A stretch of 64,000 bases of DNA from Buxus sempervirens (Eukaryota; Streptophyta; Magnoliopsida; Buxales; Buxaceae): positions 11,036,001-11,100,000 of the forward strand of contig OX387193.1 of the NCBI GenBank assembly GCA_947561395.2, written 5' to 3'. Shown here in pieces: positions 11,923-56,832 of this stretch (position 1 is the stretch's first letter; every line of letters starts with the position of its first letter). The notes beneath the pieces are model-generated. The model worked only from the letters and a program-made list of their open reading frames with translations, made no database searches and was not told the origin of the DNA. The translations under genes and the position numbers were made by a program.

Positions 11923-12009
11923 CTCTCCCAAGTGTTTGGATAGATCTGCTGATCGCTGATCGATTTCTGAGCTCCGGAACAGCTAGAGAATAAAAAATGC
12001 CAAGGAGTT

Positions 12010-23881: not shown

Positions 23882-23939
23882 GACTCCATCTTGATAATCT
23901 TGACTAGCCCTATTCCATCCATAGTAAACGTAACCTATT

Positions 23940-30966: not shown

Positions 30967-31610
30967 TCATGGTTTGTATTTATCACTCGTAATATCTTTC
31001 AACCCCAATCCTGGAAATAGATTCTGCAAAATAAAATAAGTTTTGTTACATTCAATTCAAAACAATGTAATCCAAAAAAAAAAAAAGCCAAAAGAGAATG
31101 AGAGCATGAGCCACTTACATCAAGTTCTTTCTGGATATTCTTAGGTCTCTTCGTGGGCTTTCTAGTTGGTTTGGATCCAGTCATGAGAAGAATATCCGCT
31201 TCAATCTCTTCCCTTGTTAGCGAAACTGAGAACGTCGGTTTCTTGAACTTCTTCTTCTGTTGAGATTCTTCCATCTTTGAACATTCGGCAAACTTAATCG
31301 GAATCCTTTTAGAAACAGGAATAGGTTGCTTCGGTCTCAGATTCCACGGTTTCTTCACTTGATCATCACCGTTGCAGCTGCCACCGTTTTTCTCTCCATC
31401 TCCTCCGTTTGCATCAACTTTGGAAGTCGATTTATTGTTCGTCGGAGAGTACTCTTCTTTAGTCACCTTACGAAATCGGATCACGAGCTTCCTCTTAACT
31501 TCTTGATCTCCGTCCACCCTACTTTCGTCATTCTCTGGTTTCTCGATCACGTACATGCATCGGTTTAGCGCTTCAGCCTCTTCGTAGGTTGCTTTAGCTT
31601 GAAGCACCAT
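30967..31610 (-). CDS. DUF1639 family protein, copy D (two exons, minus strand)
   Basis: Exon 1 is 31610-31119 and exon 2 is 31023-30967, with GTAAGT donor and TTTGCAG acceptor. The 182-residue product has one extra residue (Tyr after KEE near residue 54) from a 3-bp insertion. It has Ile for Val near residue 96 and keeps Met at 112, as in copy A. Everything else matches copies A-C, with DUF1639 motifs intact. It is the unit 2 counterpart of copy B. The upstream exon-like block is interrupted by a small poly(A)-bearing insertion at 31891-31920. Confidence 0.75.
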
Positions 31611-31876
31611 CTCTCCCAAGTGTTTGGATAGATCTGCTGATCGCTGATCGATTTCTGAGCTCCGGAACAGCTAGAGAATAAAAAATGCCAAGGAGTTCTA
31701 CACGAAGGAGGAGTTCGAACAAAGAAACAACTTGTTATGGAAGTCTTGACCTCGCTCAGAACTCACCACGGTGCCGATGATCGAGCTTATCCTGCCCCCG
31801 TTTCACGAAGAAGACGAAGAGGGGAATCCTGTCGCGAGGTGACTTGAAGCCATCTGTGTATCCACTCTGGTGGGAA

Positions 31877-36236: not shown

Positions 36237-36787
36237 CCTTGTTGATTGTTAATTTAAAATTTGCAAGCAGCAATGAGAAGGGGGAACCATGGAGCAAACG
36301 TGCGTTGTTCACATTGACACCATCAGTGACGAAATTGGATTTTTCATCTCCCGATATATCAGCCTTGCTGATATGCTTCACGGGAATGGGAAGCGGTCCC
36401 TAAGTAATCGCGTTTCTACAATAAAAACAAAAAACGTCATGAAAGAAATCAAAGAGGCGAAAGGAATAAGGAATTCGAGGATGGCTCACTTTGGCTGGAG
36501 AAAATCCAGAATCAGGGGGTATGAGTCACATGAGAAGGCATAAAGCCACCGCCTGAGAAGACGGCAATGCCGTCGAACTAACTCATGAACAGCAATTTGT
36601 TTAGAACCCTAAATGAAAAGCCAAAGGGAGAGAACAAAATCCAAAAACTGGGGAGCACTTCTGGAAGAGGCTTCGCCGGAGAGTGTGTGAGGTTCGTTTT
36701 GAGTAGCAGAGCAATGTTTCCGACAGGGCTCACTGCCACAACGTACAAAAAATTGATTTTTGACACAATGTTAGTGTTGGTTGAGCA
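36237..36787. other. Outer-element core between two insertions, no recognised gene
   Basis: About 550 bp with an 84-codon frame from 36289 (MEQTCVVHIDTISDEIGFFI start) and a 70-codon frame from 36585. Neither resembles a known family. The 36289 frame begins in a plausible context but is short. It could be captured host sequence. Confidence 0.25.
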
Positions 36788-36795
36788 GTTGACAT

Positions 36796-36956
36796 AGCGC
36801 GTGGATCCTCTGTGAAGCGCATCGTCTGTGAAGCAAAAACATCCTCTGTGAAGCGCAATCCAACGGACCAGAATAAGCGAAGGTTATAATAGTAATTTTG
36901 AACGAAACACTTTAAAAACTATTAAAATTCTCCTCGGCAAGACGAAAACGCGTGAA
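36796..36956 (+). repeat. Left terminal inverted repeat of the 20 kb MULE
   Basis: About 160 bp, inverted partner of 56581-56765. It contains three GATCCTCTGTGAAGCGC or CATCCTCTGTGAAGCGC words near the tip. The inner part (ATTAAAATTCTCCTCGG) matches with a small indel. Confidence 0.8.
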
Positions 36957-37369
36957 ACATTTATATTATTTAACTTATAACTTGTCCACATCCGAACTTT
37001 CTCTGTTCTTACTCAGACATTTCTGTGTTTACTCCGACATTGGCGGGAAAGGTGTTGTCTTTACTCTCACTTCGAAGAAAAGGAAGGCAGCTACCACAGT
37101 TCCACTTCCAAGTGTTAAAGAAGAAGGGACCACCACTCACTCCACCATTATTTGTTTCTATTTAAGACTCCAACAACCAATGTAAACCAGGTACATAAAC
37201 AGATTTTTGGCTTTTTCCATTAATTTCAACCCCCGAAGATGGTGGAACCTTAAATAAATTGAAATGATGGTCGGGCGAACAATGCCACGCCGCCACACAT
37301 CGACAGGGTACGCCCAGAAATAAACAGCTGTCAAATAAGCCATTACCACCCCCGAACAAGCCTTAGGTA

Positions 37370-37720
37370 CCCACCGAAAAAATGTGAGGTTCACCACAAT
37401 TAAGCCTTAGGTACACACCATAAGAACCTGTAGGTACCCACCAAAAAACCGCCAATAATGCCCTAGGTACCCCCAATTAAGCCAAAATAAGGCATAGGTA
37501 CCCAAGAAATTTTCGTAGGTATCCCAAATCGCCTGGCACCGATTAATCCTGGGATTTAATCGTGATGAAACAGAGACTTCATGTTCTCTGGAAAGTTAAT
37601 CGGGACGGTCGCGATTAATCTTGAGATTAATCGCGAGACCTAATCTTGACTGGGCGATTAGTCGTGGATGCTAATCGCGGATCTCACGATTAATCTCTGG
37701 GCTAATCGCGCGGACATGTC
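37370..37720. repeat. Left subterminal arrays: GGTACC zone then CGATTAATCG zone
   Basis: Around 37360-37510 a degenerate unit of about 25-35 bp repeats TTAGGTACCCACC.AA-type words. Around 37545-37710 about eight degenerate CGCGATTAATCGCGA words follow. Both motifs are self-complementary. The right end of the element has the same two zones in mirror order (55650-55810, then 55810-56240). Confidence 0.65.
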
Positions 37721-38034
37721 TTGTCTTTTTTTTGACTTTATTTTTTGCCAGTATATTCTATCTTATTTTAACCAAACCTATGGGAATGAAGAAGGTCCAA
37801 AACTTATGTACCACCTTCGTACCCTTGGCGTACCGTAAAAATAATTCGTAGGTACCATGTGTGTAGGTACTAAGAAATTATTCCGACGTACTCAAGTTTT
37901 GTAATAAGCCCTCAAAATACACCAACTTGGCACATGGTTGAAGAGAATGGTTACCCTGTGATGTTCATGGGTACTATATATTGTTATTAGTATGATATTC
38001 TAAGTGGAATATCTGTTTTATGTTGTAGGGACAA

Positions 38035-40770
38035 ATGGAGCAAATCATTTGTACAAGTGGAAGTGAGCAATTAAGTGGAGATGAGGTTAGTGATGATATA
38101 GCGGATATAAATACAGTGCCTAGAGTTGTAAGAGTACTAAGGTTCGATGACGGCGAAGGGCATACTCAAAATTTTAGGCCATCCGTGGGAATGGAGTTCC
38201 TATCTACCGATGAAGCGTATAGATTTTACAATGCTTATGCAGCACAGAAGGGCTTCAGTATTCGAAAGAGTACGAGATGGAAAAGTCGGAAAGATGGTAA
38301 GGAGTTGTGTAGGAAGTTTTGTTGCTATAAAGAAGGGAAGAAGGGAATAGACAAACGGGATAAAGATGTGAAGAACCCTAAAAAGGAAACACATACGGGT
38401 TGTTTGGCACACATGAGTGTGAAAGCTCAAGACAATGGCATGTATTTTGTAGCGAGCTTTGAGGACGAGCATAATCATGAGGTTGTTACCCCAAGTAAGG
38501 TCCACATGCTACCTTCACAGAGGAAAGTTACAGAGGCGCAATTAGCAGAAATTGTATTAGCAGAAAGCAGTGGCATACGACCAAAGCATGCTTTTGAGTT
38601 CATGGGTAGAGAAGCCGGCGGAAGAGAGAATTTGGGCTTCCTACCTATTGACCATAAGAACCAGATTCGTGACAGACGGAGAGCAATGAAAGTAGGAGAG
38701 GGATCAAGGTTATTAATTTATTTTGAAGGACAACTGATTGACGATCCGTCTTTCTTTTATGCTGTACAAGTTGATGAGAACAATGAAATAACAAACTTTT
38801 TCTGGGCTGATCGGAAGATGCAAGAAGACTATAATAATTTTGGAGATGTCGTTTGTTTTGATACAACTTATAGGACAAACGAAGCTCAAAGGCCATTTGC
38901 ACCATTGGTTGGAGTCAACCATCACAGACGAATGGTAGTGTTCGGAGCCGCAATGCTTTATGATGAGACGAAGGCATCCTTTGTTTGGTTGTTTGAAACA
39001 TTTATAAAAGCAATGAATGGGAAAAGGCCAGTTACCATCTTGACAGACCAAGATGCAGCTATGTCAGCTGCAATTGCTTTTGTTTAGCCGAACACCTATC
39101 ATCGGTTATGTGTATGGCATTTGCACCAAAATTCATTGAAGCATCTCGGTCACATATTCCAAATGAGAACCTCCTTTTCATCTGATTTCAATCGGTGTAT
39201 ATATGATTACGAGGAAGAGGCTGAGTTCTTGGAAGCGTGGGATGCAATGATTCAAAAATACGATCTCCAAGACAATGAGTGGCTGAAGGGCATATTTAAG
39301 ATAAAGGAGAAATGGGCCCTTGTATATGGAAGAACTACATTTTGTGCTGACATGAAGAGCACCCAACTGAGTGAAAGCTTCAACAGCCGGTTAAAGAAAT
39401 ACACGAAGTACAACATGGACGTCTTGTGTTTTTTCCAGCATTTTTCAAGGCTTTTGGATGATATCCGTTACAAGGAACAGGAAGACAATTATAATATGAG
39501 CCAGCGTATTCCAAGAATGATGGCGGAAATCATCATATTAAAGCATGCAAGGGAGGTATACACACCGAAGCTGTTTGAGATTTTTCAATCGGAATATGCA
39601 AAAGCTCAGAATCTTGTTGTTAATGAGACTTCACATACTGAGACATCCAAAATCTATAAAGTTAGCTTATTTGATAATCCTCGAGGGCATGTTGTTACAG
39701 TTAACATTGAGGATGATATGTTGAAATGCAGTTGCCGTAAGTTTGAATTTGTTAGGATTTGTGTAGCCATGCACTCAAAGTACTTGACGTGCGAAATATT
39801 AAGAGGATCCCAAGTCAATACATATTAAAGCGGTGGACAAAGGATGCAAAGGGTTGCAACCCAAGTTATAGTCGTATGTCAGATGAGGAAGTGGCAAAGC
39901 TGTCCATGGTTAAACGGTACAGAGAACTTTGCCATAATGCCGTTAAATTATCAGCAATTGCTGCCGAAACTTTCGAGGCATATGAATGTGCTGCGAATGG
40001 GCTGGCCATTTTAATGACCGAAGTTGGAAATGTGCTAAAGAACAAGCCTCCGAGCACAGTGGATGGGAATGAAGGAGAGAATTTATCCGAAAATATTCAA
40101 ATCACCGTTGCTGGACTGAAGAGGAAGTCGGGTCGAGGTCGTAGTGGACGTCGACCAAAACATTTTTCAGAAAGGGCTCCAAAGAGCAAGAGGAACCATG
40201 ACATACCAACTCAAACGGCAAATACAATTCAGACTCAAACTCCACCACAAACACAATATGCAAGTCAAAGCTCTGGATGGAGTGAGACAATGGTATAATA
40301 CTTACCTCATACTAATGTATTTGTTTTATCATATCATGATTATGGTTTTATGGGGGGATTTTTGATTTTTTATGAATTTTATGTATTCCATAGGCCTCTC
40401 ATCAGTTTCGAACAGATGGAGTGGTGACGGGAATGCAATCGAGAACATATCCTATGGCTGAATATGCAATTTTGTCTCCATTCCAACAACCTGGTACTTA
40501 CACACAGCTACTGCGGGTATATTTTCTAGAAGATCCTACTCTTCAATACTTTTTGAAGACTTTCAATGCTTTGCAATGACATTCCTTTAATGACAGGAAT
40601 CAATGAGTCCAAACATATTCCAAGAATCTAACTCAAGCAATACTGTTGGCCAGAATCAATTTGGCTCCTGTTCAAGCTCTACTGTAGGGAGATCTCCAGG
40701 AGTTTATAGTCGAGATGGGAGCTTATATCATCAAAAAGGAGATTTAGATCATTTCCCTGGAGATTTGTGA
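38035..40770 (+). pseudogene. FAR1/FHY3-type MULE transposase gene, disabled
   Basis: Three coding exons: 38035-40292, 40394-40516 and 40597-40770 (stop TGA). A splice acceptor (TTGTAG) just before the ATG suggests a 5' untranslated intron. Domains in order are the FAR1 zinc-binding DNA-binding domain (residues about 56-152, ending DEHNHEV), the MULE/FAR1 transposase core (CFDTTYRTN with Asp276, ILTDQD with Asp338, then a later Glu in QLSESFN), and a SWIM zinc finger (CSCRKFE..CSHALKV). The C-terminus is basic then Ser/Gln-rich. FAR1 and FHY3 are domesticated relatives of such transposases. An in-frame TAG replaces codon 351. A single-base loss near 39760 shifts the frame inside the SWIM finger. 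All else aligns, so decay is recent. It faces inward from the left end of the element. Confidence 0.85.
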
Positions 40771-41039
40771 TTCTTTTGTATATTGGTACGACAAGAAAGG
40801 GGGAGTGAATTGTGTGTATTGAATGTGTTGACAGTGTTAGTCATGTAATTATATTGTTTTTGTAGTGCAATGTAAGTGTTCATTTTTTCTAATTGTACAA
40901 GGATGTGTATGTACCAAATGTATACTTCTAGTGGAATGAGAATCGCAATTTTGAGTTAATTATTTAGTTCCGTTAATTGGTTAATATTTTCAGAGCTTCG
41001 TGCTGTTCCTCTTGCAAGTACATCCCAAATCAAAATAAA

Positions 41040-41420
41040 GTTCCCCCATTAATAACACAGGTACATCCAAAATCAACCCTTAGGTACCCCCTATCTACCT
41101 TAGGCGCCACCCATAATGGCTCCCAAAACCCCCCAATATATATATTTTGTACACCCCAACTGAAAAGTTAAGGTATCCCCTCAAACAACAATAAGAACCC
41201 ACCCATCTGGACCTTAGGTACCGTAGATTAAGCGTTAGGTACCCACAATCATGCTTTAGGTACCCCACAAATAAGCGCAAGGTACCCTCTGCACAAATAG
41301 CATGACGCGCGTACCTGGGATATCAACGCCCGAACGTTTCAGTACGAATTGGTGATTGAGATTTCAACGCGCGAACATTGGTTCGTAATGTCCGCACGTT
41401 ATAAGGAAATTCTTCCTACT
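41040..41420. repeat. GGTACC array plus CGCG/ACGTT motifs between the first two genes
   Basis: About nine GGTACC-type words in degenerate 25-35 bp units (TTAGGTACCCC.CAAATAAGC), then ACGCGCGAACGTT-like words at about 41320-41400. It sits between the convergent 3' ends of the FAR1 gene and the 41721-43016 gene. More GGTA words continue to about 41520. Confidence 0.6.
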
Positions 41421-41720
41421 TCCTAACGTACCACTTTGTTCCCTGTAATTATGCCCTTGTCCTCAAGGAATCCCCCCAATGATGCCTTAGGTAGCCCCCA
41501 AATGAGGCCTACGGTACACCGCCAATCATCTTTTCAAAGAAGGAACTGATTCGGAATAGATTGATGGACAAAGTTATATCAAATGGAAACAACAGAGGAT
41601 TATGATGCTGCAATTACGAATACTTTTACTATGGGAAATGAGTACATTCTACACATCTGAGTTGCGTTGAGATAAATACATTTATATTCAAAACATAGAA
41701 GTACGTCTAAAATCAACACA

Positions 41721-43016
41721 CTACGGTGCAATGTCATCGTCATCAGACCCGGGAAGTGGTGGGAGGGATGGAGTCTGCTGAATGGAGCAAGTGAAGAGAT
41801 GAGTCACTATCTTCACGGCTTTCTTGACCAGCTTCTTTAGTCCACCAACTTCATGAGTGATAGATTCCTGAAACATTCCAAAATCACGTTGTAGACTGCC
41901 AAAATCCTCTCGAATCTCTCCAACGTCTTGGCTAAGCCTACGAAAGGCTTCTGACGACGGTCCACGTCGTGAATATGTCTTGAAAGAGCTGGGTTGAGAA
42001 GTGGGTGGACGAGGATGTGATGACGAAGGTTGTGCTGGCTCTGCTTCCTCTCTTTGTTGTGGCTGCTGTTGGTGCGCCATTGATTCTTCGGATCTCTGAG
42101 CCGCGTGACAGTGGTGGTGCAAAGGTGCAAGTTGCATTTGATTTAGATTCATCTGTGAAAATTGTCTTGAAATAACCATGGAATCAGGAGGTCCATGTAA
42201 ACCAAACCTCATCCCAATCCTGGTCATAAGATAGGCAAACGGAAGGGCTCTGGGACGAGATGAATGGACAACTTGACATATATGTCTGCAAATGAATGTG
42301 GGCAGACAAAGGCGCGTCCGAGTAATGAGACGGTAGAGAAGGAAGACCATGGGCTTGGTCAGCTCGAACTTATTACCGCACCTAGGATAGACATTGAATG
42401 TGAAGATGAGATGGAGTATTCTATACGTAGGGAAGAGCTTATTAGCTTGAAGCACAGTCTTTTTCCATGGTGCATCAATCCCACACAGACATTGAGTGAC
42501 CTCAGCAAGTTCCTCTTGCGTTGGTGGGTTCAGGAAACGGATCTCTGATCTAGGTATACCCATTAGATCACTTATCAAGTCAGGTGTGACAGTATAGGTA
42601 GAGTCTGCCACTTTGATCTCAAATGCAGGCTCACGAAAAGGAGGGGTGGAAGGGTTACGGGATCCGGCATAAAGTTGAGCAACAGTCGAGGAGTTGGCAG
42701 CATCCCCCCAATCTAGAATGCCGGACCAACCAACAGCTTCCAGAATCTGTACAATACCATATGGTTCTAAACATGATCTAACAACCGGTTTCTCAACAAT
42801 CAAGGGTCGCTGCCGAATCTGCACGGCTTCAGAAGGTGCAGACGATGAATTATCAGGAGAATAAGGCTCCCTATGGATGGTAGACTGAGAGGGATTGGGT
42901 TCCTCTGTCTTAGAAGGGCTGTAATGAGAGCCGGAAGATAATGAGGGACTTGCAAGTGCAGGAGTCCTATCCCTTCTCCTCTTATGGCGCATGCTAGAAT
43001 TCTTTGTTCGAGGCAT
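41721..43016 (-). CDS. Plant transposon-domain protein (Transposase_32-like), element-borne
   Basis: 431 residues, single exon. The ATG at 43016 (MPRTKNSSMRHKRRRDRTPA) is preferred over an upstream frame extension because a TATAAATA box lies only about 265 bp upstream. The N-terminus is basic and Ser/Pro-rich, a nuclear-localisation-like feature. The middle (about 100-290) has the layout of the putative plant transposon protein domain, with FEIKVADSTYTVTPDLISDL and MGIPRSEI. Next come a Gln/Pro-rich spacer and an amphipathic helix (RLSQDVGEIREDFGSLQRDF), and the tail is acidic (GSDDDDIAP). The role of such proteins is unknown. They are found almost only in or next to plant transposons. It is the only element gene here with a fully open frame, and it pairs with the related 48368-50174 gene in divergent orientation. 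Confidence 0.7.
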   Translation of the reverse strand: MPRTKNSSMRHKRRRDRTPALASPSLSSGSHYSPSKTEEPNPSQSTIHREPYSPDNSSSAPSEAVQIRQRPLIVEKPVVRSCLEPYGIVQILEAVGWSGILDWGDAANSSTVAQLYAGSRNPSTPPFREPAFEIKVADSTYTVTPDLISDLMGIPRSEIRFLNPPTQEELAEVTQCLCGIDAPWKKTVLQANKLFPTYRILHLIFTFNVYPRCGNKFELTKPMVFLLYRLITRTRLCLPTFICRHICQVVHSSRPRALPFAYLMTRIGMRFGLHGPPDSMVISRQFSQMNLNQMQLAPLHHHCHAAQRSEESMAHQQQPQQREEAEPAQPSSSHPRPPTSQPSSFKTYSRRGPSSEAFRRLSQDVGEIREDFGSLQRDFGMFQESITHEVGGLKKLVKKAVKIVTHLFTCSIQQTPSLPPLPGSDDDDIAP

Positions 43017-43164
43017 GATTTGAGAAAATGACAGAGAACAAAACAATGTTCGACACAACTCACAGTGGAAACTTGGTGGAGCCAAACCGTAAACCCCGTA
43101 TATTTGGCCTTGAGTTGGAGAGTATACAGACTTGGAGAACCCTAGAAGAAACAGGAAGTGCATA

Positions 43165-43440
43165 TACCGTAGATTAATCGTGATTTGGAGGCGAGAGGCA
43201 GTAGGAGAACAGTGGAATAAGGGGACCCATGCGTAGGAAACCCTAGATTAATCGTGAGTACGAAGTGGAGCGAAACCCTCTATTTATACACCCAAACATA
43301 AACCCTCGCTTGTGCGCATACAAATAATACATACGGCCGCACGATTAGTCGTACAAATCAGTAGATTAATCGCATGCTTAATCGCCATGTTCCGATTACG
43401 CATGGGACCTAACCCTGATGAAACAGCGACTTGCTGTATG
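43165..43440. repeat. CGATTAATCG palindromic words in the promoter of the 41721-43016 gene
   Basis: At least six degenerate AGATTAATCGTGA / CGATTAGTCG / CGATTACGCA words, the same family as 37545-37710 and 55660-55810. Their presence at both element ends and at an internal promoter suggests one binding protein acts at all three places. That is an inference. Confidence 0.5.
43281..43288 (-). promoter_or_regulatory. Probable TATA box of the 41721-43016 gene
   Basis: TATAAATA on the minus strand about 265 bp upstream of the ATG, in the context GGGTGTATAAATAGAGGG, a strong plant core-promoter match. CGATTAATCG-type words surround it (43170-43440). Confidence 0.6.
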
Positions 43441-43559
43441 AAAATATTATATTTTTATGATATACTAATGTGTCTAGAAATCATGGGAAAGGGATTGAAT
43501 GATGTGAGAGTTTATAACATTCATGTCACGTTATGAATGTAACTCATGTAACATATGTG

Positions 43560-46500
43560 CACGTATTTTTGAATCTTCAATACATACAAATCTGAGTACC
43601 CCCTAAATAAGGCCAAGCTACCCCAGACTTAAGCCCAAGGTACTGTGCAAAGTTTTCCAAAACGTGACCCCATGAAGAGAGCACCAATAGCACAGAGTGG
43701 TAGCGAGGTAACCCAAGAAATACGACCAGGGCACCCCTCAAATAATTCTAAGGTACATCAGAAAAAAAGCCAAAGGTGCCCCCCAATGATGCCTTACGGT
43801 AGCCACAATTAAGAAGCCAGGTACTGTATGGGTACCCAACATAACACGCAGGTACCCAAAAAATCATATGAAGGTACCCCATACGAAAGCGCGCGAACGG
43901 TCCTTTAGAAAGCGCGCGCGTCAGTTGTCCTCTTAAGCCGGAACGTGCGTGCGTTAAAGACAAACGTCCGCACGTTGACGTCTGTTCCCCTTTCCTTCTA
44001 CGGGGTACCTTCCCTTTAACACAGGGGTACCTTCGTATTATATCATTGGGTACCTTAGTTTTAACTGGGGTACCTGTGGCCTACCTTAATATACGCGTCT
44101 GTGCTTGTACATACATGTGTACAAATACATACAAGCAGCCGATACACAACAAAAAATGTACTTACAAGTGTGCAAACAAGAACACACATGCACACGCAGG
44201 TATACATGTGTGTGCGTGGGTACACGTACAGACATGTGTACACAAGCCAAGTACGTCATAGGTACCCTAACTAATACGTGGGTACCCAGGCATAGGGAAT
44301 GAAGGTACCCCATACGTAAGGCGAAGGTACCCAATATGAGGAATTACTAAGAAAAGTTAACGCGCGGACATTAAGGTCAAACGCGCGAGCGTTAAAGCTA
44401 TAAAAGCGCGCGTGACAATGGTCTTCTTCGGCCGGAACGTTCGCGCATTAGAGACCAACGTCCGCGCGTTGACGTCTATTCCCCTTTCCCTCTACAGGGT
44501 ACCTTCGTTTTAAAACCGGGGTACCTTCGTATTATATTGTGCGGTACCTTAGTGTTAATTGGGGTACCTGGGGCCAACCATAATATACGCGTCTATGCAT
44601 GTACATACATGTGTACACATACATACAAGCAAGCCGGTACACACCAAAAAATGTACTTACATGTGTGCAAACAATAACACACATGTACACGCAGGTATAC
44701 ATGTGTGTGCGTGGGTACACGTACATGTACACAAGTACATGTTCTTGTACGTGTACATGTACAGAAATGTGTACACATGTACACACATGTCTACATCTGT
44801 TCAAATGCATGTAAATGTACATGTATGTGTACAAATGTACACACATGTACATGTGTGCTCATATTGACATGTGTAAGTGTGTACACATGCACACACATGG
44901 GCACATGAGTGTACACACACGCACATGTGTGCACATATACACATGTGTACTTGTGTACACAGATGACAATGTCCATGTGTACATTTGTAAGGTACATCAG
45001 CAAACAAGCCAGAGGTGCCCCCAAATGATAACTTACGGTAGGCACAATTACGAAGAAAAGTACGTCATAGGTACCCCAACTAATACATGGGTACCCAAGC
45101 ATAGGGAATGAAGGTACCCCATACGTAAGGCGAAGGTACCCAATATGAGGAATTACTAAGAAAAGTTAACGCGCGAACGTTAACGTCAAACGCGCGAGCG
45201 TTAAAGCTATAAAAGCGCGCGCGACAATGGTCTTCTTCGGCTGGAACGTTCGCGCGTTAGAGACCAACGTCCGCGAGTTGACGTCTGTTCCCCTTTCCCT
45301 CTACGGGGTACCTTCGTTTTGAAAGCGGGGTACCTTCGTATTATATTGTGCGGTACCTTAGTGTTAATTGGGGTACCTGGGGCCAACCATAATATACGCG
45401 TCTATGCATGTACATACATGTATACACATACATACAAGCAAGCCGGTACACACCAAAAAATGTACTTACATGTGTGCAAACAAGAACACACATGTACACG
45501 CAGGTATACATGTGTGCACATATACACATGTGTACATGTGTGCACATGTGTACATGTCTACTCATATATACAAGTACATGTTTACACATATACACATGTA
45601 TACATGTGTGTCCACGCATATATACATGTACATGTGTACACATATACACTGTGTACATATGTAAACAAACGTACATGAACACGTGTCCACATGTACACAT
45701 GTACACACATGTGCATATGTAAAGGTTCACGTACACATGTTAGTGCACAAGTACATGTGGACACGTGTACATGGCTCAGGAACCCAAGAAATAAGACCAG
45801 GGCGCGCCGCCTTAAATAACTCTAAGGTACATCAGAGAATAAGCCAAAGGTGCGCCCCAATAATGCCTTACGGTAGCCACAATTAAGAAGCCAGGAATTG
45901 TATGGGTACCCCCCATACAAGCCTTTAGTTGTCCCAAAGAAAAAAAGTCAAAAAATCCAATATGGGTACCCCTGTAAAATTCAGGTACTCCCCAAGAAAT
46001 ATTGGGGTACACCGCATTACACCGAAGGTACCTCAGGAAATGCTCTGCTTAAAGAACATTAACGCGCGGACGTTCTTCTAAACGCTCGCACGTTAACTTC
46101 TCTTACAGCTTAAACGTTCGCGCGCTGGACACTAACGTCCACGCGTTAATGTTTCTTTGTTATTCCTCTTTCGGGTACCTTCGCCTTTCTTAAGGGGTAC
46201 CTTCATATTATTTTTTGGGTACCTAAGTAATATGTGGGGTACCCATACAATTCCTGGCTTCTTAATTGTGGCTACCGTAAGGCATTATTGGGGGGCACCT
46301 TTGGCTTATTCTCTGTGTATATGTGTAAACATGTACATTTATATATGAGTAGACATGTACCAATGTGCACACATGTATATGTATGTAAACATGTGCCCAT
46401 GTGTGTACATTTGTAAACATGTACATGTGTGTACACAGGTACAGGTACATGTGTGTACACATATACATGTACATACATGTTTACACATGTACAGACATGT

Positions 46501-47775
46501 GTGTACATGTCTACACATTTCTATACATGTACACGTACAAGAACATGTACTTGTGTACATGTACGTGTACCCACGCACACACATGTGTGTACTTGTGTGC
46601 ACACATGTAAGTACATTCTTTGATGTGTATAGGCTTGCTTGTATGTATGTGTACACATGTAAAAACATGTACAGAAGCATATATTAGGGTAGGCTACAGG
46701 TACCCCAATTAAACCTAAGGTACCACAAGATATAATACGAAGGTACCCCGGTGTTAAAGCGAAGGTACCCCGTAGAAGGAAAGGGGAACAGACGTCAACG
46801 CACGGACGTTGGTCTCTAACGCACGAACGTTCCGGCCGAAGAAGACAGCTGTCGGACGCGCATTAATAGCTTTAAAGCTCGCGCGTCGGACCTTAACGTC
46901 TGCGCGTTAATGTTTCTTAGTAATTCCTTATATTGGGTACCTTCACCTTAAGTATGGGGTACCTTCATGTTATTGTTTGGGTACCCACGTGTTATTGTGG
47001 GTACCTATGACGTACTTGTCTTCGTAATTGTGCCTACCGTAAGTTATCATTTGGGGGCACCTCTGGCTTGTTTGCTGATGTACCTTACAAATGTACACAT
47101 GGACATTGTCATCTGTGTACACATGTACACGTATGTATATGTGCACACATGTGCGTGTGTGTACACTCATGCGCCCATGTGTGTGCATGTGTACACACTT
47201 ACACATGTCAATATGAGCACACATGTACATGTGTGTACATTTGTACACATACATGTACATTTACATGCATTTGAACAGATGTAGACATGTGTGTACATGT
47301 GTACACATATATGTACATGTTCACTTACAAAAACATATACTTGTGTACACATATATCATGTACATGTGTACACATGTACACACCTGGGTACATGTGTGCA
47401 CATATATACATGTACATGTGTACACATGTACACACATGTGTACAATCATGTATACACACATATACAAATGTACATACATGTGTGCACAACATAAACCGAA
47501 GGGACCCTTTAAAAACCCGTTGGGACACTTTAAAAAAGTTAAGAGGCTCTGGGGACGATACATATTTAATATCAACGCGCGCACGTTCTCGTGAACGCTC
47601 GGACGTTCGCTTTGGGCTTGGGTACCCCCGCTTTTTTGCATGAGGTATCCCCACATTTTGCCTGGGGTACCCCATCATAAACCGAAGGTACCCTTTGAAG
47701 AATTCCTTATGTTTTTGCACATATTTAATATCAACGCGCGCACGTGCTGGGCGCGTGCGTCCGGGCGTTTGCCTA
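43560..47775. repeat. Central repeat zone: nested direct and inverted GGTACC, CGCG and TGTACA arrays
   Basis: No gene. A unit made of GGTACC words, a CGCG/ACGTT block (CGCGCGAGCGTTAAAGCTAT and kin) and a TGTACA microsatellite is repeated directly three times (from about 43985, 44475 and 45285) and inverted at about 46160-47330. One shared marker, AATATACGCGTCTATGCATG, lies near 44583 and 45390, with a relative near 44090 and an inverted relative near 46680. Every long frame here is Cys/His/Thr/Tyr/Met-rich on both strands and is a by-product of the TGTACA repeats. Confidence 0.8.
44760..47330. repeat. Large imperfect palindrome, centre near 46040
   Basis: The arms are about 44760-46000 and 46160-47330. 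Three marker pairs agree on the centre: 44793-44938 with 47140-47290, 44990-45080 with 46995-47095, and 45830-45900 with 46236-46316. The arms differ by small changes and by microsatellite length. The centre is within about 0.75 kb of the midpoint of the 20 kb element. Confidence 0.75.
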
Positions 47776-48367
47776 TATTTACAAAGAAACAGGTCTGGCG
47801 CGTTATTTCGTCCATGCGAATCAAAGCCATCCGAAGCACTTCATCTTCATTTCGATAAAGTCTTCTCAAGGTGGGTACCACTTCTCTTCTGGAAGAGTTC
47901 CAAAGCCTATATTTCTGGTTCGTAGGACTTACGATATAATTTAGGAACGCTACTGCTTTGATTTTATATGTTACGATTAGGGTATTAATTTGTGCATTTA
48001 GGGTTTCCGATCTATGTGTTTATTCTAATGTCTTGAAGAGGTACATTTTGGTTTATCTTCGTCGGAATGGTTTATATTATCGGTTGCAATCAAGTTACTA
48101 TTCACTTTTCCTATAAGCCTTTGACAAGTACACATCCCTATTGTTATCTCCCTGACGCATGAATAACGCCTGCACTTTTTCCTTAAGTGTTGGGGTTTTT
48201 TTTATGTATATAGGGAATGGGTTTTTTCCACACAATTATTCATATTATTCACATTCTATATTATTTGCATTCGGTAGCACTCATCTTTTCTATGTCTAAC
48301 ATTATCGTTTGCTATGTGTTGTTTTGTGCATATTTATTTTTCTTCCTCTCTTCTTCTGAAATCTTAG

Positions 48368-50174
48368 ATGGCCCCTAAGACCAGAGCCTCATCTTCTAAA
48401 CCTAAGACATCCTCCAGGACAGCCAATAAGAAACGCAGGACTGATTCATTTGATAATTCAATCTTCATCAATCAGAAGGCCAAGAAGCTGTACGAGAATG
48501 ATATCAGCCACAGACAAATCTTGCTTGAAAGAGGGGTTATTCTAGAAGACTTCCCTGAGTCTATTAGTGCAACATTTACCGGGAGAGGATGGGATAACCT
48601 CTTCACCAACTTCCTGCTCCCATCCCAACACCTAGTATATGAATTCTATTCAAACATCCACAACATCGCAGACGGTCCCGCATCCTTCGATACCTCTCTC
48701 AGAAGGCAGCCCATCCATGTAGATTCTGATACCATCGCTGGGGCCCTAGGTATCCCGAGAGTTGAGAATCCTGAATTCTCGTATGTTGATGCTCCCTTAC
48801 CACAATTGCTCAATGAAGTGGCTGCTTGTTTACTGACCACTGAGAGGGAGGGGGACTATGAGGGCAAAGCTCTGGATTCCTCCAAGTTTACATTTGACAC
48901 CTCATTCATATACAAAATCCAATGGTCTAACCTTGCGCCGGTAAGTCACAGATCAACTGTGCCTCCTATGAGAGCACTCTTGCTTTATGCATTGGTCAAG
49001 AGGCATTCAATTGATGTTCCCACCATCATGATTTCGTCTATGCTTGACTGTTTTTTCGATACCAAACATAGGTGTGGACTTCCTCTCGGGTGTGCCATTG
49101 CAAAGATAGTCAAGATGCATCAAATTGACTTCCCCGAGTATGAGTTACTTGCTCCCCTTCCTCCTATCAGTACTGCAACATATAATAAGTCCAAGGGGCA
49201 ATACAACAAGTCTCATCCTCCTCCTCCACCCCTCCCCCTATTCCAGGGGTCCATGCGCCTTCTCCTCCATCTCCTACCCCTGCTGGTGAAGATGCTCCTG
49301 CTCCTCCACCCCCTCCCCCTGTTTCAGGGGTCCATGCGCCTTCTCCTCCATCTCCTCCCCCTGCTGGTGAAGATGCTCCTGCTCCTCCATCTCCTCCCCC
49401 TGCTGGTGAAGATGCTCTTGCTCCTCCATCTCCTCCCCCCAATGTTTCTATAGGACATGAGCATGATCTTCCTCTCCTGGAGTCTGCTACACATGATCAA
49501 CCTGTGGAACCTGATATTCCATCCTCATCGACGCCTGCTCCTGCTGCTGCTCCTATAGACCAAACAACTTCTTCCCAATTTCCTCGTGGACTCGCATCAA
49601 TCCTTTCACAGGTTATGGGCATGCAATGTGAGTTGATGAATCAAAACAAGCTACTTCTTGAGAACCAGGAGATGATGAAGCAGCAGATAAAACAATTGTA
49701 CGATGGTCAGCTTGCATACAAGCATGAAACTAATCGCCACGTTGCTAAGAGGGAACATCTTCTTCAGAACGTAGAAGGTGACACCTACTCTATGAAAAGG
49801 ATGTACGAGAAGTGATTAAGCCGAAGTTTGCACAAATTGACACCAAGTTGAATTGGGTGAGGACAACAGTATGGAATGCTGATGACACATTAAAAGCAGT
49901 GCATCAGAAGCAGACCAGGCTGAACGAGATATATTTGGAGATGCAACAAGACTACAGCCGGGCCATGAAGCACTTTGAATTGGAAAATCAGGAGCTTCAA
50001 AGGCTGAATAGGGATAGGGGAGAACGGAGGACAGTTGTCGATGCAGCTTCTCAAGGTGTCGTTGGAGAGCATATTCCTCCAAGTGATGCGGAGTACATTC
50101 GAGATGAACATTTGTTGCTTGAATCCCTTGAGCCTGCACACAAAGTTCCTGATCCAGCAGGGCCTGCCCCATAG
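48368..50174 (+). pseudogene. Second plant transposon-domain protein, frames shifted
   Basis: The ATG at 48368 lies right after a TCTTAG acceptor. A 5' exon with donor AAG/GTGGGT near 47872 is likely. Residues 1-280 resemble the Transposase_32-type domain (ENDISHRQILLERGVILEDF, VDSDTIAGALGIPRVE). A Pro-rich tandem repeat follows (SPPPAGEDAPAP, about 36-48 bp units, 49225-49440), then two helical segments (QNKLLLENQEMMKQQIKQLY; KHFELENQELQRLNRDRGER) ending at 50174. The frame shifts once near 49229, where one repeat has four C and its sister copy has five. It shifts again near 49815. The frames together cover about 600 codons. It is divergent to the related 41721-43016 gene, with the palindrome between them. 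Confidence 0.65.
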
Positions 50175-50529
50175 TCTTGAACCTCTTTTCATGTCATCTG
50201 AGTATCGAATGCATCTTATTTGACCATCTTGTTTTACTTATGTGCCTGTAAAACGTTGCGATAAGTGCATGCAAAGCAAATATTGTTTGGTCTTAGCTTT
50301 CATTTGTCATATTCCTCTATCTCCCCAATACACACACATTGGGTCTAGCACGTCGTAATGCGTGTACATGCAAAACAACCAGTCCAAGGTGCTGGTTATA
50401 TTAGCCTATGGTAATGAACTTCCACCTATAAGACTAAGGTATTATACGAAATGATTAAAATCTGCAACGAAGGCTGTGGGAAGACGGGGAATGCAAAAAA
50501 AGTCAGCTTATATTAATCTTAATCTTGAG

Positions 50530-51110
50530 ATACCCTTCCAAACGTGCCTACGTATCCCCCAAATCAGCCCAGGGTACCCCCCACACGAGCCTTAATTTAT
50601 CCACAAAAAATTCTCCAAATTAAGGGGAGAGTACCTCCAAGTAACACTTAGGTACCCCAAAGGTAAATTTTAGGTACCCCACAAGAAACCCGAAGGTACC
50701 CACACGTACAAAATAGTGGGAGCACATTCAACGCGCAAATCTTTCCTGGTAACGCTCGCGCGTACTGTGCACTTTAAAGCTGCAATGTGCGGGCGTTAAT
50801 GATTAACGTCCGCGCGTTTTGTTCATTATCAGTTCCTACTTGGGGGTACCTCCGGCTTACTTATGGGTTACCTTAATATTAATTTTGGGGGTACCTGGGT
50901 ATTACTTAGGGGTATTTTGGCTTATTTGCTGATGTAACTTAGGCTTATTTCGTGGGGGCCTTGGCCTTATTTCGGTGTGTACTCAACTCTTACTAGGTGA
51001 CACCTAAGCTTATATGGGGTGGGGGTGGTACATTGTGCCGGTTAGGGGGTTACCTTACCCTTCACACGAACCGTACCTTCATTTTGTTTTGGGGGGGAGT
51101 ACCTAATGTA
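50530..51110. repeat. GGTACC and CGCG array between convergent genes
   Basis: GGTACC words in 25-35 bp units on both sides (50540-50710 with CC after, 50840-51070 with GG before) surround a CGCG/ACGTT block at about 50728-50825. The block is therefore itself an inverted arrangement. It lies between the 3' ends of the 48368 and 51440 genes. Confidence 0.6.
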
Positions 51111-51439
51111 TAGTAACTTGTTTTAAAATTTGGCGTAATTTACGATCAACGAGTTTGACGAATCTGTGGCAGAACTTAAGCAATCAAAATAACCAAGCTT
51201 TTATTCAATGGATACAATGTCTTATGTACACAATACAAAAATCTGATCGTGAAACATCATAAAAAACTAAACATGCCATAAAAGTAAAATCCAAGTGAAT
51301 GCTTGATTCAACTACAGCATTCATTACAGGAACATCCTTGTCCTCAAATAAATACATACAGATTCCCCAAAAATTAAAATTTTAGTTTGTAGTTTGACGC
51401 ATGTATAATATAAAAATGTTAATACATCGAACTCTCCCC

Positions 51440-54400
51440 CTAGGTAGAACTCTTCTTCACAATATCATCCTTCACCGTGTTTTCTTCGTGGAGGATCATC
51501 TCACTCACAATGCTTCTTCTGAAGCCCGGAATATCATTCTATTCAAAATTAACAAAACTATATTAATAATGTGATCATTTGGAGCTTTTGAAAACACAAC
51601 TGGATAGGTTAGGAGTTGTAGCGTACCTACGTGAATCGAGGAGAAAGTTCTCCTCTCCAGAAAGCGGCGAACTTCATGGCGAAGATTCCATAGTCATGGC
51701 TACAAAAGATGCGAGTACAAGTTAATGCTATTAATATCATATCGTAGTAAGTATAGAAAAGAAAGAATAGGTGGAAAACGTACGGGTTGCCTTGCCGAGG
51801 AAGCTTAAGAGCCTCTGCTTTCGTCCTTGGAAATTTGCTTACTAAAACTTCCTTTTCCTATTGCCAGGTGCATATAATATCTACTGCTTTTAGCTGAAAT
51901 ATAAAAATTGATACTTAATAACAACATTAGTGACACAAGAAATTATTACGCTGATCACACTCCAGTGAGAACTTCATGGGTTCTCCACACCTTCATCGAG
52001 TTCAAAAAAAAGACTTTCTCTTTATTCATGTCAACAACACACATGTACCAATGTTCTTGCTCCAATATAGGGAAAAACAACTGCATACAAACATATTTAT
52101 TAGCTCTACCCTATTAAAAGATCCTAGCAACAATGGTGAGTTAAGCTTACCATTTTGTAGTTCACTATATTCAGTAGGTACGATGGATCAAATTGATCAT
52201 TAAGTCTGGTAAGTTCTCGGTTTTCTTCTGCCGCGCAAAAAGTCTGAAAAGTTATAATATAGGTTCAACAGGAGTATTACAGACAGTGTCAAATTCTTTT
52301 GAAGAATGTCGTAATAATTACCCCAATATCTGACAGGAAGAAGTAACATGGGCCTCCAACCTGCTGTTCCTGGAAATTCAGCATCCGCATGTAGCAATCC
52401 AAGATCTACATAGAAAAAAATAAAATCTAAGAATCCAAATATTTATGCGATCTGACAAGATACTTAGGTTGTTAGACTCCTACCCAGTTGGTAACCCATT
52501 TCTCAAGCTTCAAACATTCGAACTCACCGCGGGCAATGAAGACATCAAAGAATCTCACCAAAACCTCGCTACATATATATCCCACAAAAGAAACAGTCAA
52601 ACTATACGCAACAATTTACAAAGAAACAACGCATCAAACATAAATATGCGAAAGTACGTACTCTGGATCGAGGTCCTCACGGAATGCATAGTTGCAGACC
52701 GCGCTTCCAGCATCCACAGGAATCCTACTAGAAGATGCATCCACTGGTTCGCTTGCCTACAAGTTTATTAAAAATTCCAAAAAATGAATATATGGCTGTC
52801 AACCTAATTCTAACCGAAAAACAAAAACAATTCCTTTAGAAAAACTAAGAACAAACATACCAATGGCTGTATGGACGGATCTGCAGTGTTCAAATCCAGC
52901 AACAACCTAGCCTCCGCACGATCATCATCGTAAGATGGTACCTGAAATATATTTCATGTAGGTCACACGATCATTACATTGACAATTTTGCTCTTCAATC
53001 TACTATAGTAAAGTTTTACATGAATGGTTGACATGCAATTAGACATCCAGTTATATACTACTTATCGTTTGCGTTGGCCTCTCGGCATCGAGCGGTTGCT
53101 TACTCTTTCTGGCCCTCTTCTTTTTCTCCCCGGTGATGGTTGTAAAAGGACTCCTTTTTGCCTTGCCAGGCATCTTCATTCGTTTCAATCTCGGAGCCTC
53201 AACGGGTTGAAATGGAACGATTGAACCTTCATATTCTCCCGCTGTTGGATCCGGGATACATTCCGCCCTAGGTTCAATATCTTCCATCGGTGACACCGGG
53301 CAAGGGCCCTCCGGTGCAGAAGCAACGTTCACTGGAACCTCAAATGGTTCACGTGGACATTCAGGGGTAGGGTAGCTTCGGTAGTCACGAGCATATCCAA
53401 CAAGCTCGAGAACCATCTCTCTTAGTTCAGCTTGCCCTACTTCAAGATTGCTTATCATCAACTTCAATCTCTCCACCTAAACAAATCAAGCCACAAACAT
53501 TTGCATTTCTATAAGATCTGGAACTTATAATGAATAATAACAAAAACCGATTTCCATTACCTCCTTCTCCAAAGCCTTCAATCTCGGGGATTTGGCTACC
53601 TCAGGCTGAAGGGCAACAACTACCTTTGTTAGCTTCTTTATCGCTGCCCTCAGTTTATCCTGCTAAAACACACAATCAAATAAAATTTATGTCCATGTAC
53701 GTATAATGAATATTGATATTGAGTACCCCCTATTCGAAAATATAAATACAATACAATATAATATACCTTCTTCCTCCCCTTTGATTAATCGGACTCCGGA
53801 ACATTTTCATATTCAATATGTTCCGGAATATTCATGTCCTTTTCCTTTCCTTCTTTCTCCCTTTCCAATAGGGCTGGCAATGGGTCGGATATATATCCAA
53901 ATCCGACCCGAATCCGATCCAAAATTCTCGAATCCGATTCAAAAATATAGATCCGCGGTTCGAATACGGATATCGGATTTCGGATCCGACCGAATTCGGA
54001 TCCGAATCCGAATCTGTCCATATCCAATCCGAACCGAAATCAACATATACTTTTCATTAAATCATTGGTAACCTTTGTATAAACCATGGTTAAACTATCC
54101 TTATTCATATCTTACTTTAATATTTATATGGCTCATTAGTTTTGATAATTAAAATTTGCTTTAATAGTTAAACTTAACTTTTGAGTTTTAAGTTCAAATC
54201 GGATCTAATTCGGATCGAATTCGGATTTCGGTTATTTATTCGGTCGAATTTCGAATTCGGATATATTATATAAATTCGGTTTCGAATTCGGATTCACATA
54301 TAAAAGATCCGTCGGATTTCGGATCGAATTCGGATATCGGATTTTTATTTTCGGATTCGGATTCGGATCATGACAGATCCATACCGTATTCAACCCGTTG

Positions 54401-55209
54401 CCAGCCCTACTTTCCAACACATCCTCATCATTTCACACGGTGATGAGAGGAGCTGTTGCATCCAACTCTATCGCGCTCCCATCCATGCGCAAGCATTCAT
54501 AATAGAACATCTGCGATTGATTAAACATTTCTTCCATTACAATTTAAGCATACCAAATATATGAAATGTGTGTATAACAATAATTTACCTTTAGAAAAAC
54601 CAAACAACCACCGACATATATTTGGTGCTTCTCCTTGTATCGGCGGATTGCAGCAATGAGCCAATCAAGAACCAACTTCGACCAGTTGAGGGTACGGAGT
54701 CCCTTCATATCCATTATGAGATTTAAGAACTTTGTGCTGGCCTCCGGCTTAGCTTGAGGGCATAAAAATGAGCCCAATGCAAGCAATACAAAAAGCCTCA
54801 AAAAATCTTCATCCGCCGTCTCCTTCTCTTGCAGTCTTCTCTCCAGCTCTCCTAAAGGTATCTTACCCTTATCATCACAATACATTTTCTTTAATTCTGT
54901 GAGGTCATTTTCCACCTCATCGATTTCTATACTCTCCCCGGCAGAGGTCACCCCCAATATCCGCTGAACATCAGGAGGTGATATCTCAAACGTCCTTCCA
55001 CTTACTTCAAGGCAACATTTTTCGGGATCAAATGAAGCCAATAAGGACACAATGTTGCCCTTATAACAGTGTTTAATCATCATATCAAGAAGGCTTCTCA
55101 GCCCAATTTCTCTAACAGCTAGCTTCTGGGACTCGTTCAACCTTTTGATAATTTTTAGCAGTCGTTGAGGACTGCATCTATTGCGAACTCCTTCCCCGCT
55201 TGGTGCCAT
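51440..55209 (-). pseudogene. Ulp1/C48-like cysteine protease gene of the MULE, catalytic residues lost
   Basis: A multi-exon gene. Exon 1 is 55209-54589 (207 codons, a plant mobile-type domain: GLRSLLDMMIKHCYKGNIVS, ISPPDVQRILGVTSAG). Further exons are near 54510, at 53659-53561, 53476 to about 53060, then near 52940, 52757, 52570, 52405, 52243 and 52080, and 51890 to 51440. The C-terminal part has the SUMO-protease fold signature. LFFPILEQEHWYMCVVDMNK gives the His-Trp pair, FFLNSMK stands where the catalytic Asp-Ser should be, and NPHDYGIFAMKF stands where the family has DCG. So two of three catalytic residues are replaced (Asp to Asn, codon 52000-52002; Cys to Tyr, codon 51690-51692). In-frame stops occur near 54434 and 51859. 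A hAT insertion lies at 53879-54409. Ulp1 proteins cleave SUMO; this copy cannot. Confidence 0.7.
53879..54409. mobile_element. hAT non-autonomous element (531 bp), perfect 8-bp target duplication
   Basis: The flanks are CTTTCCAA at 53871-53878 and 54410-54417. The ends are TAGGGCTGGCAA and TTGCCAGCCCTA. Subterminal stretches repeat GGATCCGAATCCGA-type words. It is inserted into the second exon region of the Ulp1-like gene. It belongs to the same broad family as 35085-36228 but is not the same copy type. Confidence 0.88.
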
Positions 55210-55299
55210 TTATCTACAAATAAATACACAAATTGATAAAAAAAAACTTTGCAATATGACTATTTACATGTGCCATCTATAAAATCAAAATGTAAATTG

Positions 55300-56240
55300 A
55301 AATACGCTTTACGTACCCCACAAATATGCATTTTGTACCCCACAAATAAGAATTGGGTACCCACAAATAGGCCCCCTAAATTGGTTTACCTACACCTACA
55401 AATTGGCTTACCAAAACCCAATTAAGCCTTCGGTACCCCCAACAAAATAAGGCTTTCGTACCCCACAAATAAGCCTTGGGTATCCCCAAATATCCTCCCC
55501 CCCCCCACCCAAAATGTTCTAGGTACACCCCAAAAATGCCTTGGTACAAACAAGTGAGCCTTAGGTACCAGCCCCCTAAGCCTTGGGTAACCCACCAATT
55601 ATGAATTAATTGGGGAGGGGAGAGAAATCTAAGCCTTACTTCCCAAGATTTTCATCACGATTAAGTACAGGATTAATCGTGACTTGGCGATTAGGTGCGG
55701 TGATTAATCAGACGACGAATCGCGGATTTGCGATTAACTGTAAGCAGTGAAATATTGTCTCTGTTTCGTAGCGATTAGGTCTCAGGACAAATAGCCAAAT
55801 CACGATTTCAGGAAGTACCTTAGACCTATATTGGGGATACCTTGGGCTTATATTGTGGGTACTGTAGGTTTAGGGGGTACCTTAGGCTAATTTTCGTGAG
55901 TGGGTTTGGCTTACCATGGGGTACCTTAGGTTTATATGGGAGCTACCTTAGGCTTATATGCGGTACCTTGGGCTTAGAGTGGGGTACCTTAATCTGATTT
56001 GTGGGGCGTACTTATGGGTTATTTGACTGGGGGTACCTACGCTTTATTTGGGGGTGCCTGTGCATTAAATGGGGATGTAGCTAATGCTTATTTGGAGGGT
56101 ACCATAGGTTTATTTGTTGACTACGAAAATGTTTTTTGGGGAGCTCTTCGGGCGTACCTAAAGCTTAACTCGGCAGGTACCCATCGTTATTTGGAGCAGT
56201 ACCTTTGGCTTATTTCGCCTGGTACCCATGGCTCCTTATG
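55300..56240. repeat. Right subterminal arrays, mirror of the left end
   Basis: GGTACC words face one way at about 55310-55570 and the other way at about 55810-56230 (GGGTACCTTAGGCTTATTTG-like). CGATTAATCG-type words lie between them (55650-55810). The order and orientation mirror 37370-37720. One frame at 55999-56283 is open by chance through the repeat. Confidence 0.65.
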
Positions 56241-56500
56241 TATACATTTGGTCATTGGCTCATTATATTATAAAATTAAATGAGGACTTACAGTCGTCTT
56301 TCAATGAGGCTGGTGGCTGTCGTGGTGGTCCCTCACTTACAAAGTTCTTGTGATGGTGGTGGTCTCTTTCTTTCTTCAAGTGGGCGCGCGCGTTTGTAAG
56401 AAAGGGAAACCTCTGTGAAGCAAATGGAGTATGATCCTGTCCCTTTCATATGCGATGAGGATGACGAAGACGAAGAAGGTCCAGAAATGTCGGGTAAAGT

Positions 56501-56765
56501 GCGGACGTGGAGAGGATCCTAAAATAAATAATATGTTTCGCACGTTGCGGACGTGGAGAGGATCCAAAATTAAATACTATGTTTCGCACGTTTTCATCGA
56601 GACGAGGAGATTGCCGAGGAGAGAGCCGAGGAGAATTTTAATAGTTTTTAAAGCGTTTCGTTCAAAATTACTATTATAACCTTCGCTTATTCTGGTCCGT
56701 TGGATGCGCTTCACAGAGGATGTTTTTGCTTCACAGACGATGCGCTTCACAGAGGATCCGCTGCG
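56501..56765 (-). repeat. Right terminal inverted repeat of the 20 kb MULE with tandem duplication
   Basis: 56581-56765 pairs with 36796-36956. Just inside it, a segment of about 48 bp (CGGACGTGGAGAGGATCC..ATGTTTCGCACG) is present twice (about 56500-56545 and 56548-56593). A GAGGAGA-rich stretch is longer here than on the left. Confidence 0.75.
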
Positions 56766-56832
56766 GTTGACATGGGGGGTAAAATGGGGATGAAAGGACG
56801 GGACATGACCTGCTCCTCCTCTTTTGTAATTA

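Follow-up and report, generated by a model that had tools for sequence, protein, structure and literature searches.

A four-gene, 20-kb FAR1/Jittery-type Mutator-like element family in Buxus sempervirens with GGTACC arrays and a candidate anti-silencing gene

Several described groups of plant Mutator-like elements (MULEs) share single traits with the four-gene MULE of about 20 kb that we report here from Buxus sempervirens. The publications on them are cited by PMC number, and our statements refer to excerpts of these sources. The transposase JITA has a FAR1 domain, while MURA has DBD_Tnp_Mut (PMC9569675). Jittery-group elements (group 36, PMC6446971) and CitMule (PMC4334395) combine a FAR1 N-terminus, a MULE core and a SWIM domain. 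Jittery-like MULE families bearing ULP have been reported in melon and grapevine, and Jitvine-1 and -2 have listed lengths of 11.9 and 14.4 kb (PMC2528002). DUF1985 is one domain of the VANC proteins (PMC5735166, PMC10398659), and KIU genes are VANC genes with Ulp1 (PMC13317346). The element lies at 36796-56764 of a 64-kb window, by which we mean the whole stretch of DNA analysed (64,000 nucleotides; GCA_947561395.2, OX387193.1, here C19, 11036001-11100000; genome 676.5 Mb, 247 contigs).

The Buxus element has the FAR1, MULE and SWIM build of group 36 and CitMule. It shares the 9-bp target duplications of CitMule, which is, however, 7 kb long with degenerate ends (PMC4334395). Group 36 MULEs are listed with one open reading frame (PMC6446971), whereas all four genes were found in eight of the nine copies of the Buxus family studied, the window copy included. 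Unlike here, the excerpted descriptions of group 36, CitMule and Jitvine-1/-2 mention neither Transposase_32 genes nor motif arrays. The genes run as a FAR1+MULE transposase (+), a Transposase_32 protein (-), a second Transposase_32 protein (+) and a DUF1985/plant mobile domain (PMD)-like gene with an Ulp1-type part (-); the outer genes face inward and the inner genes outward. Taken as a whole, we lean towards reading the locus as one defective member of a FAR1/Jittery-type MULE family with terminal inverted repeats (TIRs; TIR-MULE) and self-encoded anti-silencing, a family that is young and apparently autonomous. The element part of this explanation is very nearly certain. The anti-silencing part, in which gene 4 would read the array and remove silencing, is an analogy that we regard as evenly balanced.

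The features of the window copy are as follows (coordinates in the window, strand, description).

36787-36795, no strand, left target-site duplication AGTTGACAT, 8/9 match to the right one
36796-36938, plus, left TIR, begins AGCGCGTGGATCCTCTGTGAAGC and holds direct repeats of TCTGTGAAGC
37366-37856, no strand, five GGTACC sites upstream of the transposase gene
38029-40298, plus, gene 1, FAR1 + MULE + SWIM transposase, with one in-frame stop and one frameshift in the window copy
41083-41286, no strand, five GGTACC sites between genes 1 and 2
41721-43247, minus, gene 2, Transposase_32 (PF20167), open frame of 508 amino acids (aa) from stop to stop
43746-47879, no strand, central repeat nest (inverted and tandem), holding 42 GGTACC sites as well as TGTACA-rich arrays, varying between copies
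48368-50174, plus, gene 3, second Transposase_32 with a proline-rich repeat, frameshifted in the window copy
50573-50895, no strand, six GGTACC sites between genes 3 and 4
51505-52442, minus, gene 4, Ulp1 (Peptidase_C48) exons, EHWYMCVVD and DCG motifs
53051-53476, minus, gene 4, probable middle exon, 141 aa, no Pfam match
53869-54410, no strand, nested insertion of 542 bp in a gene 4 intron, ends TAGGGCTGGCAA...TTGCCAGCCCTA, 8-bp duplication CTTTCCAA
54547-55209, minus, gene 4, first exon, weak DUF1985/PMD match below the Pfam cut-off
55356-56226, no strand, 11 GGTACC sites upstream of gene 4
56625-56764, minus, right TIR
56765-56773, no strand, right target-site duplication GGTTGACAT, 8/9 match to the left one

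Two traits of the Mutator superfamily delimit the element. The ends are long and near-identical: 36803-36938 aligns in inverted orientation with 56625-56759 over 136 bp at 98.5% identity, and the inverted ends are about 143 bp long in the window copy. A 9-bp target duplication flanks them, with 8/9 bases matching. The first-pass annotation, made from the letters alone, had proposed a single element with such borders and a mirror order of four genes, outer inward and inner outward. The termini alignment and the recurring copies bear out the former, and the frames and domain matches confirm the latter. Its terminal repeats of 165-185 bp were rightly described as inverted but overstated in length. 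The central palindrome it described does contain inverted repeats, yet these form a nest with tandem repeats rather than a single clean palindrome, and the length of this nest (43.7-47.9 kb) differs from copy to copy. Near the right end of the window copy, a 46-bp unit occurs twice (56500-56608), while copy J (introduced below) is rich in ACGTCCGCGCG words, and the subterminal repeats apparently differ between the two. Just beyond the right end, at 57089-57269, there is a 60-bp inverted repeat (92% complementary, 61-base gap).

By its domains, the transposase is of the Jittery/FAR1 type. In copy J (C1:11884350-11905300), which was chosen for its open transposase frame, the FAR1, MULE, SWIM and Transposase_mut matches are all above cut-off, and the MULE DDE domain (PF10551) scores 5.8e-27, against 1.6e-19 in the window fragment. 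FAR1 and SWIM, a trait of this group, are above cut-off in both copy J and the sister copy K described below; the MURA-type DBD_Tnp_Mut was not found in either by a Pfam scan with E up to 0.1. The best match in a PDB search (E 0.019) is a Mutator-family transposase. KI-MULEs (Kaonashi) have a mudrA-type transposase, whereas that of the window family is FAR1-type.

Copies of the element recur across the genome. The searches gave 409 candidate places for the left end, 374 for the right subterminal and 160 for the left subterminal region, and the best 40 of each were scored; left-end matches are 88-100% identical among the best 40 of 409. All of the seven further copies compared are collinear with the window copy from end to end (large blocks 94.8-98.2% identity, repeat-centre blocks 81-95%), and in one, C10:16979284, the stretch 45.1-50.97 kb with gene 3 is missing. 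Copy J aligns in three large blocks (95.4-97.7%) and two small central ones (68-70%); its last ~740 bp fall outside the alignment chain, and its right end is among the listed right-end matches. The target duplication, read by eye in seven copies, is a perfect 9 bp in five and 8/9 in one, with the right end of the remaining one unread. We also clustered the best 40 matches for each of the two ends and four genes, so that a missing label is uninformative. None of the 65 clusters, 57 of which have two or more features, is mixed in orientation or out of order; among the matches listed, 15/65 hold all four genes and 8/65 all four plus both ends. The structure goes beyond chance, given that its ends and its genes turn up again in the same order throughout the genome, and the expectation of several copies with the same four genes in the same order held in the nine copies studied and in the clusters. 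Inner genes nested with ends of their own, the finding named beforehand as the one to overturn the single-element proposal, were not seen in the collinear copies.

The family is young, because the 756-aa transposase frame is open in 28/40 of the transposase matches assigned to it. The window copy is broken, because it carries the stop and the frameshift in the transposase, the frameshift in gene 3, a Cys-to-Tyr change in Ulp1 and the 542-bp insertion. This insertion (53869-54410) is found only in the window copy and is absent from 8/8 other copies compared; we take it to be hAT-like from its ends and 8-bp duplication.

Gene 4 lies antisense to the transposase and joins a DUF1985/PMD-like first exon to an Ulp1-type part. 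The Peptidase_C48 match, on one 51-aa exon, reaches 23.7 bits against a cut-off of 20.7. The Ulp1 His motif is present in 9/9 copies and DCG in 8/9; the Cys codon reads Tyr (DYG) in the window copy alone, and DCG stands in 8/8 others. The corresponding protein of sister copy K scores 22.3 bits for DUF1985 and 33.5 bits for PMD (cut-off 34.9). A DUF1985 profile search of the genome gave three weak matches among 150 scored.

The second distinctive trait, absent from the first-pass annotation, is an abundance of GGTACC. The 20-kb element holds 70 of these sites, compared with ~2.8 in single-base shuffles; the remaining 44 kb of the window contain 12. The words around GGTACC rank among the commonest 9-base words of the element. 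The sites are distributed over six non-coding intervals (5, 5, 42, 6, 1 and 11), and 0/70 fall in the five main coding intervals; the lone site in the intron stretch of gene 4 sits in a small putative exon. The spacing is narrow: in the window copy, 33 pairs lie 20-23 bp apart, 25 lie 42-46 bp apart and two lie 31-35 bp apart, with none at 15-19 or 24-28 bp. The same spacing holds across nine copies, in which pairs at 19 bp number at most four and those at 25 bp at most one. Genome-wide, there are 3785 phased GGTACC triples versus 6 for the reversed pattern. The spacers are variable, and TAA is preferred nine bases upstream. The 143-bp ends of the element have TCTGTGAAGC repeats and zero GGTACC. 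Outside the window family, phased GGTACC arrays were observed at C1:155265, 1699447, 5379792, 7293307, 9185894, 10838955 and other places.

Genes 2 and 3 both encode Transposase_32 proteins. Gene 2 probably starts at the Met of MPRTKNSS, about residue 78, and gene 3 is open over 614 aa in copy J. Such genes are very frequent in the genome (2050 candidates). One of them lies downstream of the pol frame of a copia long terminal repeat retrotransposon (L065, C9:18136700-18142699) and shares PF20167 with genes 2 and 3 at 21-28% identity. By eye, the integrase of this copia frame runs directly into the C-terminal part, with the reverse transcriptase missing. Because the domain occurs behind a copia pol and here beside a MULE-domain transposase, the Transposase_32 proteins probably do not act as transposases. 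A recent duplication of gene 2 into gene 3 via the central palindrome was considered and rejected, as the two proteins are ~19-21% identical and gene 3 is closer to the protein of sister copy K. The profile of the DUF1985/PMD exon aligns with that of Transposase_32 over 170 collinear columns (E 0.009, but with a probability of 4.5%; the best of ten column-shuffled controls had E 0.18), which gives at most a hint of distant homology. For exon 1 of gene 4 and for gene 3, structures modelled from single sequences had a mean predicted local distance difference test (pLDDT) score of 40 and 35, respectively, too low for use.

Ratios of nonsynonymous to synonymous polymorphism (pN/pS) were all counted against copy J and are not independent, owing to this shared reference. 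In eight copies, they are 0.51 for the transposase, 0.54 for gene 2 and 0.37 for the first exon of gene 4, all of which look constrained.

A sister family separates the shared core of the plan from its additions. We set 110 FAR1 matches apart from the window family; in 23 of them the frame is open over 846 or 847 aa. Window-family features occur within 30 kb of eight of the 110, which may belong to that family. Sister copy K (C3:15269591 onward) is 16,776 bp long and has a perfect 9-bp duplication, ATTAACTAC. Its transposase (+) is 47.7% identical to that of the window family and is followed by one Transposase_32 gene (-) and a PMD/DUF1985-like exon (-) that is 28% identical to its gene 4 counterpart. 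The frames after this exon give two short matches to the Ulp1 exons, with DCG and LDS motifs by eye. The Transposase_32 gene of copy K occupies the place of gene 2, yet its protein resembles gene 3 (35%) more closely than gene 2 (27%); a search of the K frames of at least 25 aa revealed no further Transposase_32 match. Copy K has a single GGTACC and a 22-bp array of its own (core CAACCTACCC, 43 units), located between the Transposase_32 gene and the end of the gene 4 relative.

The genome was also queried with the K exon, using 110 of the 150 listed rows and leaving out the lowest. A K-type gene 4 exon lies within 25 kb of 52/110 FAR1 matches and, in 51/52, downstream on the opposite strand (convergent); the sole other case, C14:40614509, is among the eight that may belong to the window family. 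A likely third family is marked by a Transposase_32 protein 72% identical to that of copy K, encoded 10 kb away from a further K-type exon and on the same strand as it. So the conserved core is the transposase with an antisense PMD/DUF1985-Ulp1-type gene, plus a Transposase_32 gene where examined. The mirror plan is absent from copy K and looks like an elaboration within the window family, and the first-pass proposal that it marks a whole class did not hold. The pairing of a FAR1-type transposase with Ulp1, one component of that proposal, is not new either, since it is reported from melon and grapevine (PMC2528002).

Comparison with VANC and KIU systems suggests what gene 4 may do. VANDAL/Hiun and KIU (Kaonashi) elements have multiple genes, as here, and an accessory gene with DUF1985; the DUF1985 match of gene 4 is below cut-off. 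The KIU accessory gene adds Ulp1 and lies opposite mudrA in KI-MULEs, and gene 4 is likewise Ulp1-bearing and antisense. The GGTACC arrays resemble the targets of VANC anti-silencing proteins, although the VANDAL-type motifs, YAGTATTAY and AGTTGTCC, differ from GGTACC. The VANDAL transposase is MURA-type. According to Sasaki et al. 2022, target motifs reportedly act through density and helical periodicity. VANDALs mostly lack inverted ends or have short degenerate ones (PMC6446971), in contrast to the long, near-identical ends here. MuDR/MUDRAVI2 MULEs with PMD genes (groups 49-50) share the PMD-like gene, often antisense there, the long ends and the 9-bp duplication (PMC6446971); their transposase is of another type, and scans of copies J and K yielded no MURA-type DNA-binding domain. 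Taken singly, FAR1-type MULEs, Jittery-like MULEs with ULP, MuDR groups with antisense PMD genes and VANC arrays are thus all known. In excerpts of the open-licence literature, no paper was found that joins these features in one element or describes Transposase_32 genes in MULEs. New are the four-gene, 20-kb form with two Transposase_32 genes and a GGTACC array spaced mostly ~22 or 44 bp.

Because the build and position of gene 4 are VANC/KIU-like and the element holds a matching kind of array, we propose gene 4 as array reader and anti-silencing factor. The transposase would bind the inverted ends and move the whole 20-kb unit, making the 9-bp target duplication, an outcome shown by the structure of the copies. 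Gene 4, as a VANC/KIU-like protein, would recognize the phased GGTACC arrays in the non-coding intervals and remove silencing from array-bearing copies, allowing the family to spread. The two Transposase_32 proteins could be accessory, perhaps as partners or distant relatives of the N-terminal domain of gene 4. The central nest may drive genes 2 and 3 as a bidirectional promoter region and also serve as the densest target array.

Several observations weigh against this explanation. The first exon of gene 4 is below the Pfam cut-offs for both DUF1985 (23.1 vs 35.1 bits) and PMD (20.5 vs 34.9). The triad Asp of its Ulp1 part is Asn by eye in 8/9 copies, the remaining copy being frameshifted there. 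The pN/pS is 1.02 for its middle exon (eight copies) and 1.00 for gene 3 (seven copies), so that constraint on gene 3 is without support from this measure. A 5.8-kb derivative (C4:9141814-9147620) has both ends and an open 756-aa frame, with genes 2-4 without a match among those listed. Among the matches listed for C1, which cover its first 11.9 Mb, there are 13 array loci; 11 lie outside the window family and two belong to it. Phasing at 10.5 bp is unsupported outside the centre (mean cosine 0.27 vs 0.40 for the 99.9% null), and the best period, 10.9-10.95 bp, was picked after the fact. Variable non-CpG columns are as frequent in GGTACC (9/147) as in other non-coding sequence (358/5844; majority-based, Fisher p = 1.0), and this within-family test gives no sign of recent selection on the sites. 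An earlier contrast, in which GGTACC seemed better kept than matched hexamers (404/435 vs 459/653; outside the centre, 177/190 vs 366/450), was dropped as an artefact because copy J had served as reference; the majority-based count shows no difference.

The arrays might instead serve another protein, namely the transposase, a Transposase_32 protein or a host factor, in a promoter or enhancer function. This would fit their position upstream of all four genes, their peak density in the interval from which genes 2 and 3 diverge, and the many arrays in other elements. A transposase, however, should recognize the ends, which lack GGTACC, and the VANC precedent favours the antisense DUF1985-type gene (PMC5735166). 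We consider such a reader somewhat unlikely.

Genes 2-4 could also be captured passengers without a role, as in Pack-MULEs. The pN/pS of gene 3, the short derivative with its open transposase frame and the single Transposase_32 gene of copy K would all agree with mere cargo. Against this, the sister family has counterparts of gene 4 and the Transposase_32 genes as open frames at 28-35% protein identity, the convergent orientation is kept in nearly all linked gene 4 exons, and gene 2 and the first exon of gene 4 have low pN/pS values. Hence, cargo is an unlikely account of these genes.

A bolder variant of the anti-silencing explanation derives the DUF1985/PMD-Ulp1 protein and both Transposase_32 proteins from one DNA-binding fold. 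These would jointly read a genome-wide GGTACC code, with sites about two helical turns apart, common to several families. We think this quite improbable.

A composite of nested insertions would make the inner genes elements of their own, inserted into a MULE. It would suit the sheer number of Transposase_32 genes, one of which, with its surroundings examined, sits behind a copia pol. It was rejected as extremely improbable from the collinearity of copies and clusters, no search having been aimed at target duplications around genes 2 and 3: order and orientation are the same in 8/9 copies (the ninth being without gene 3), 0/65 clusters break the order and the sole true nested insertion, at 53869-54410, is absent from all other copies compared.

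Elsewhere in the window, a CACTA-type transposase has an open 741-aa frame at 21713-23938 (-) with Transposase_21/tnp2, Transpos_assoc and DUF4218. Four near-identical gene frames (4834-5445, 11314-11982, 17442-18110 and 30999-31670), one of which was scanned and matches DUF1639, lie within repeats of 1.1-2.6 kb in both orientations. The ~97-98% identity of these repeats points to recent duplications in the left half of the window.

In the Arabidopsis VANDALs, transposons are known to counter silencing in a sequence-specific manner, and the window family would extend the same logic to a distant, long-ended MULE lineage. As a test system, it combines a large number of near-identical copies with numerous open transposase frames, a sister family whose array differs, and a highly distinctive motif. 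It opens to direct test whether DUF1985/PMD-Ulp1 genes serve plant MULEs in general for anti-silencing and which role the very common, probably misnamed Transposase_32 proteins may have.

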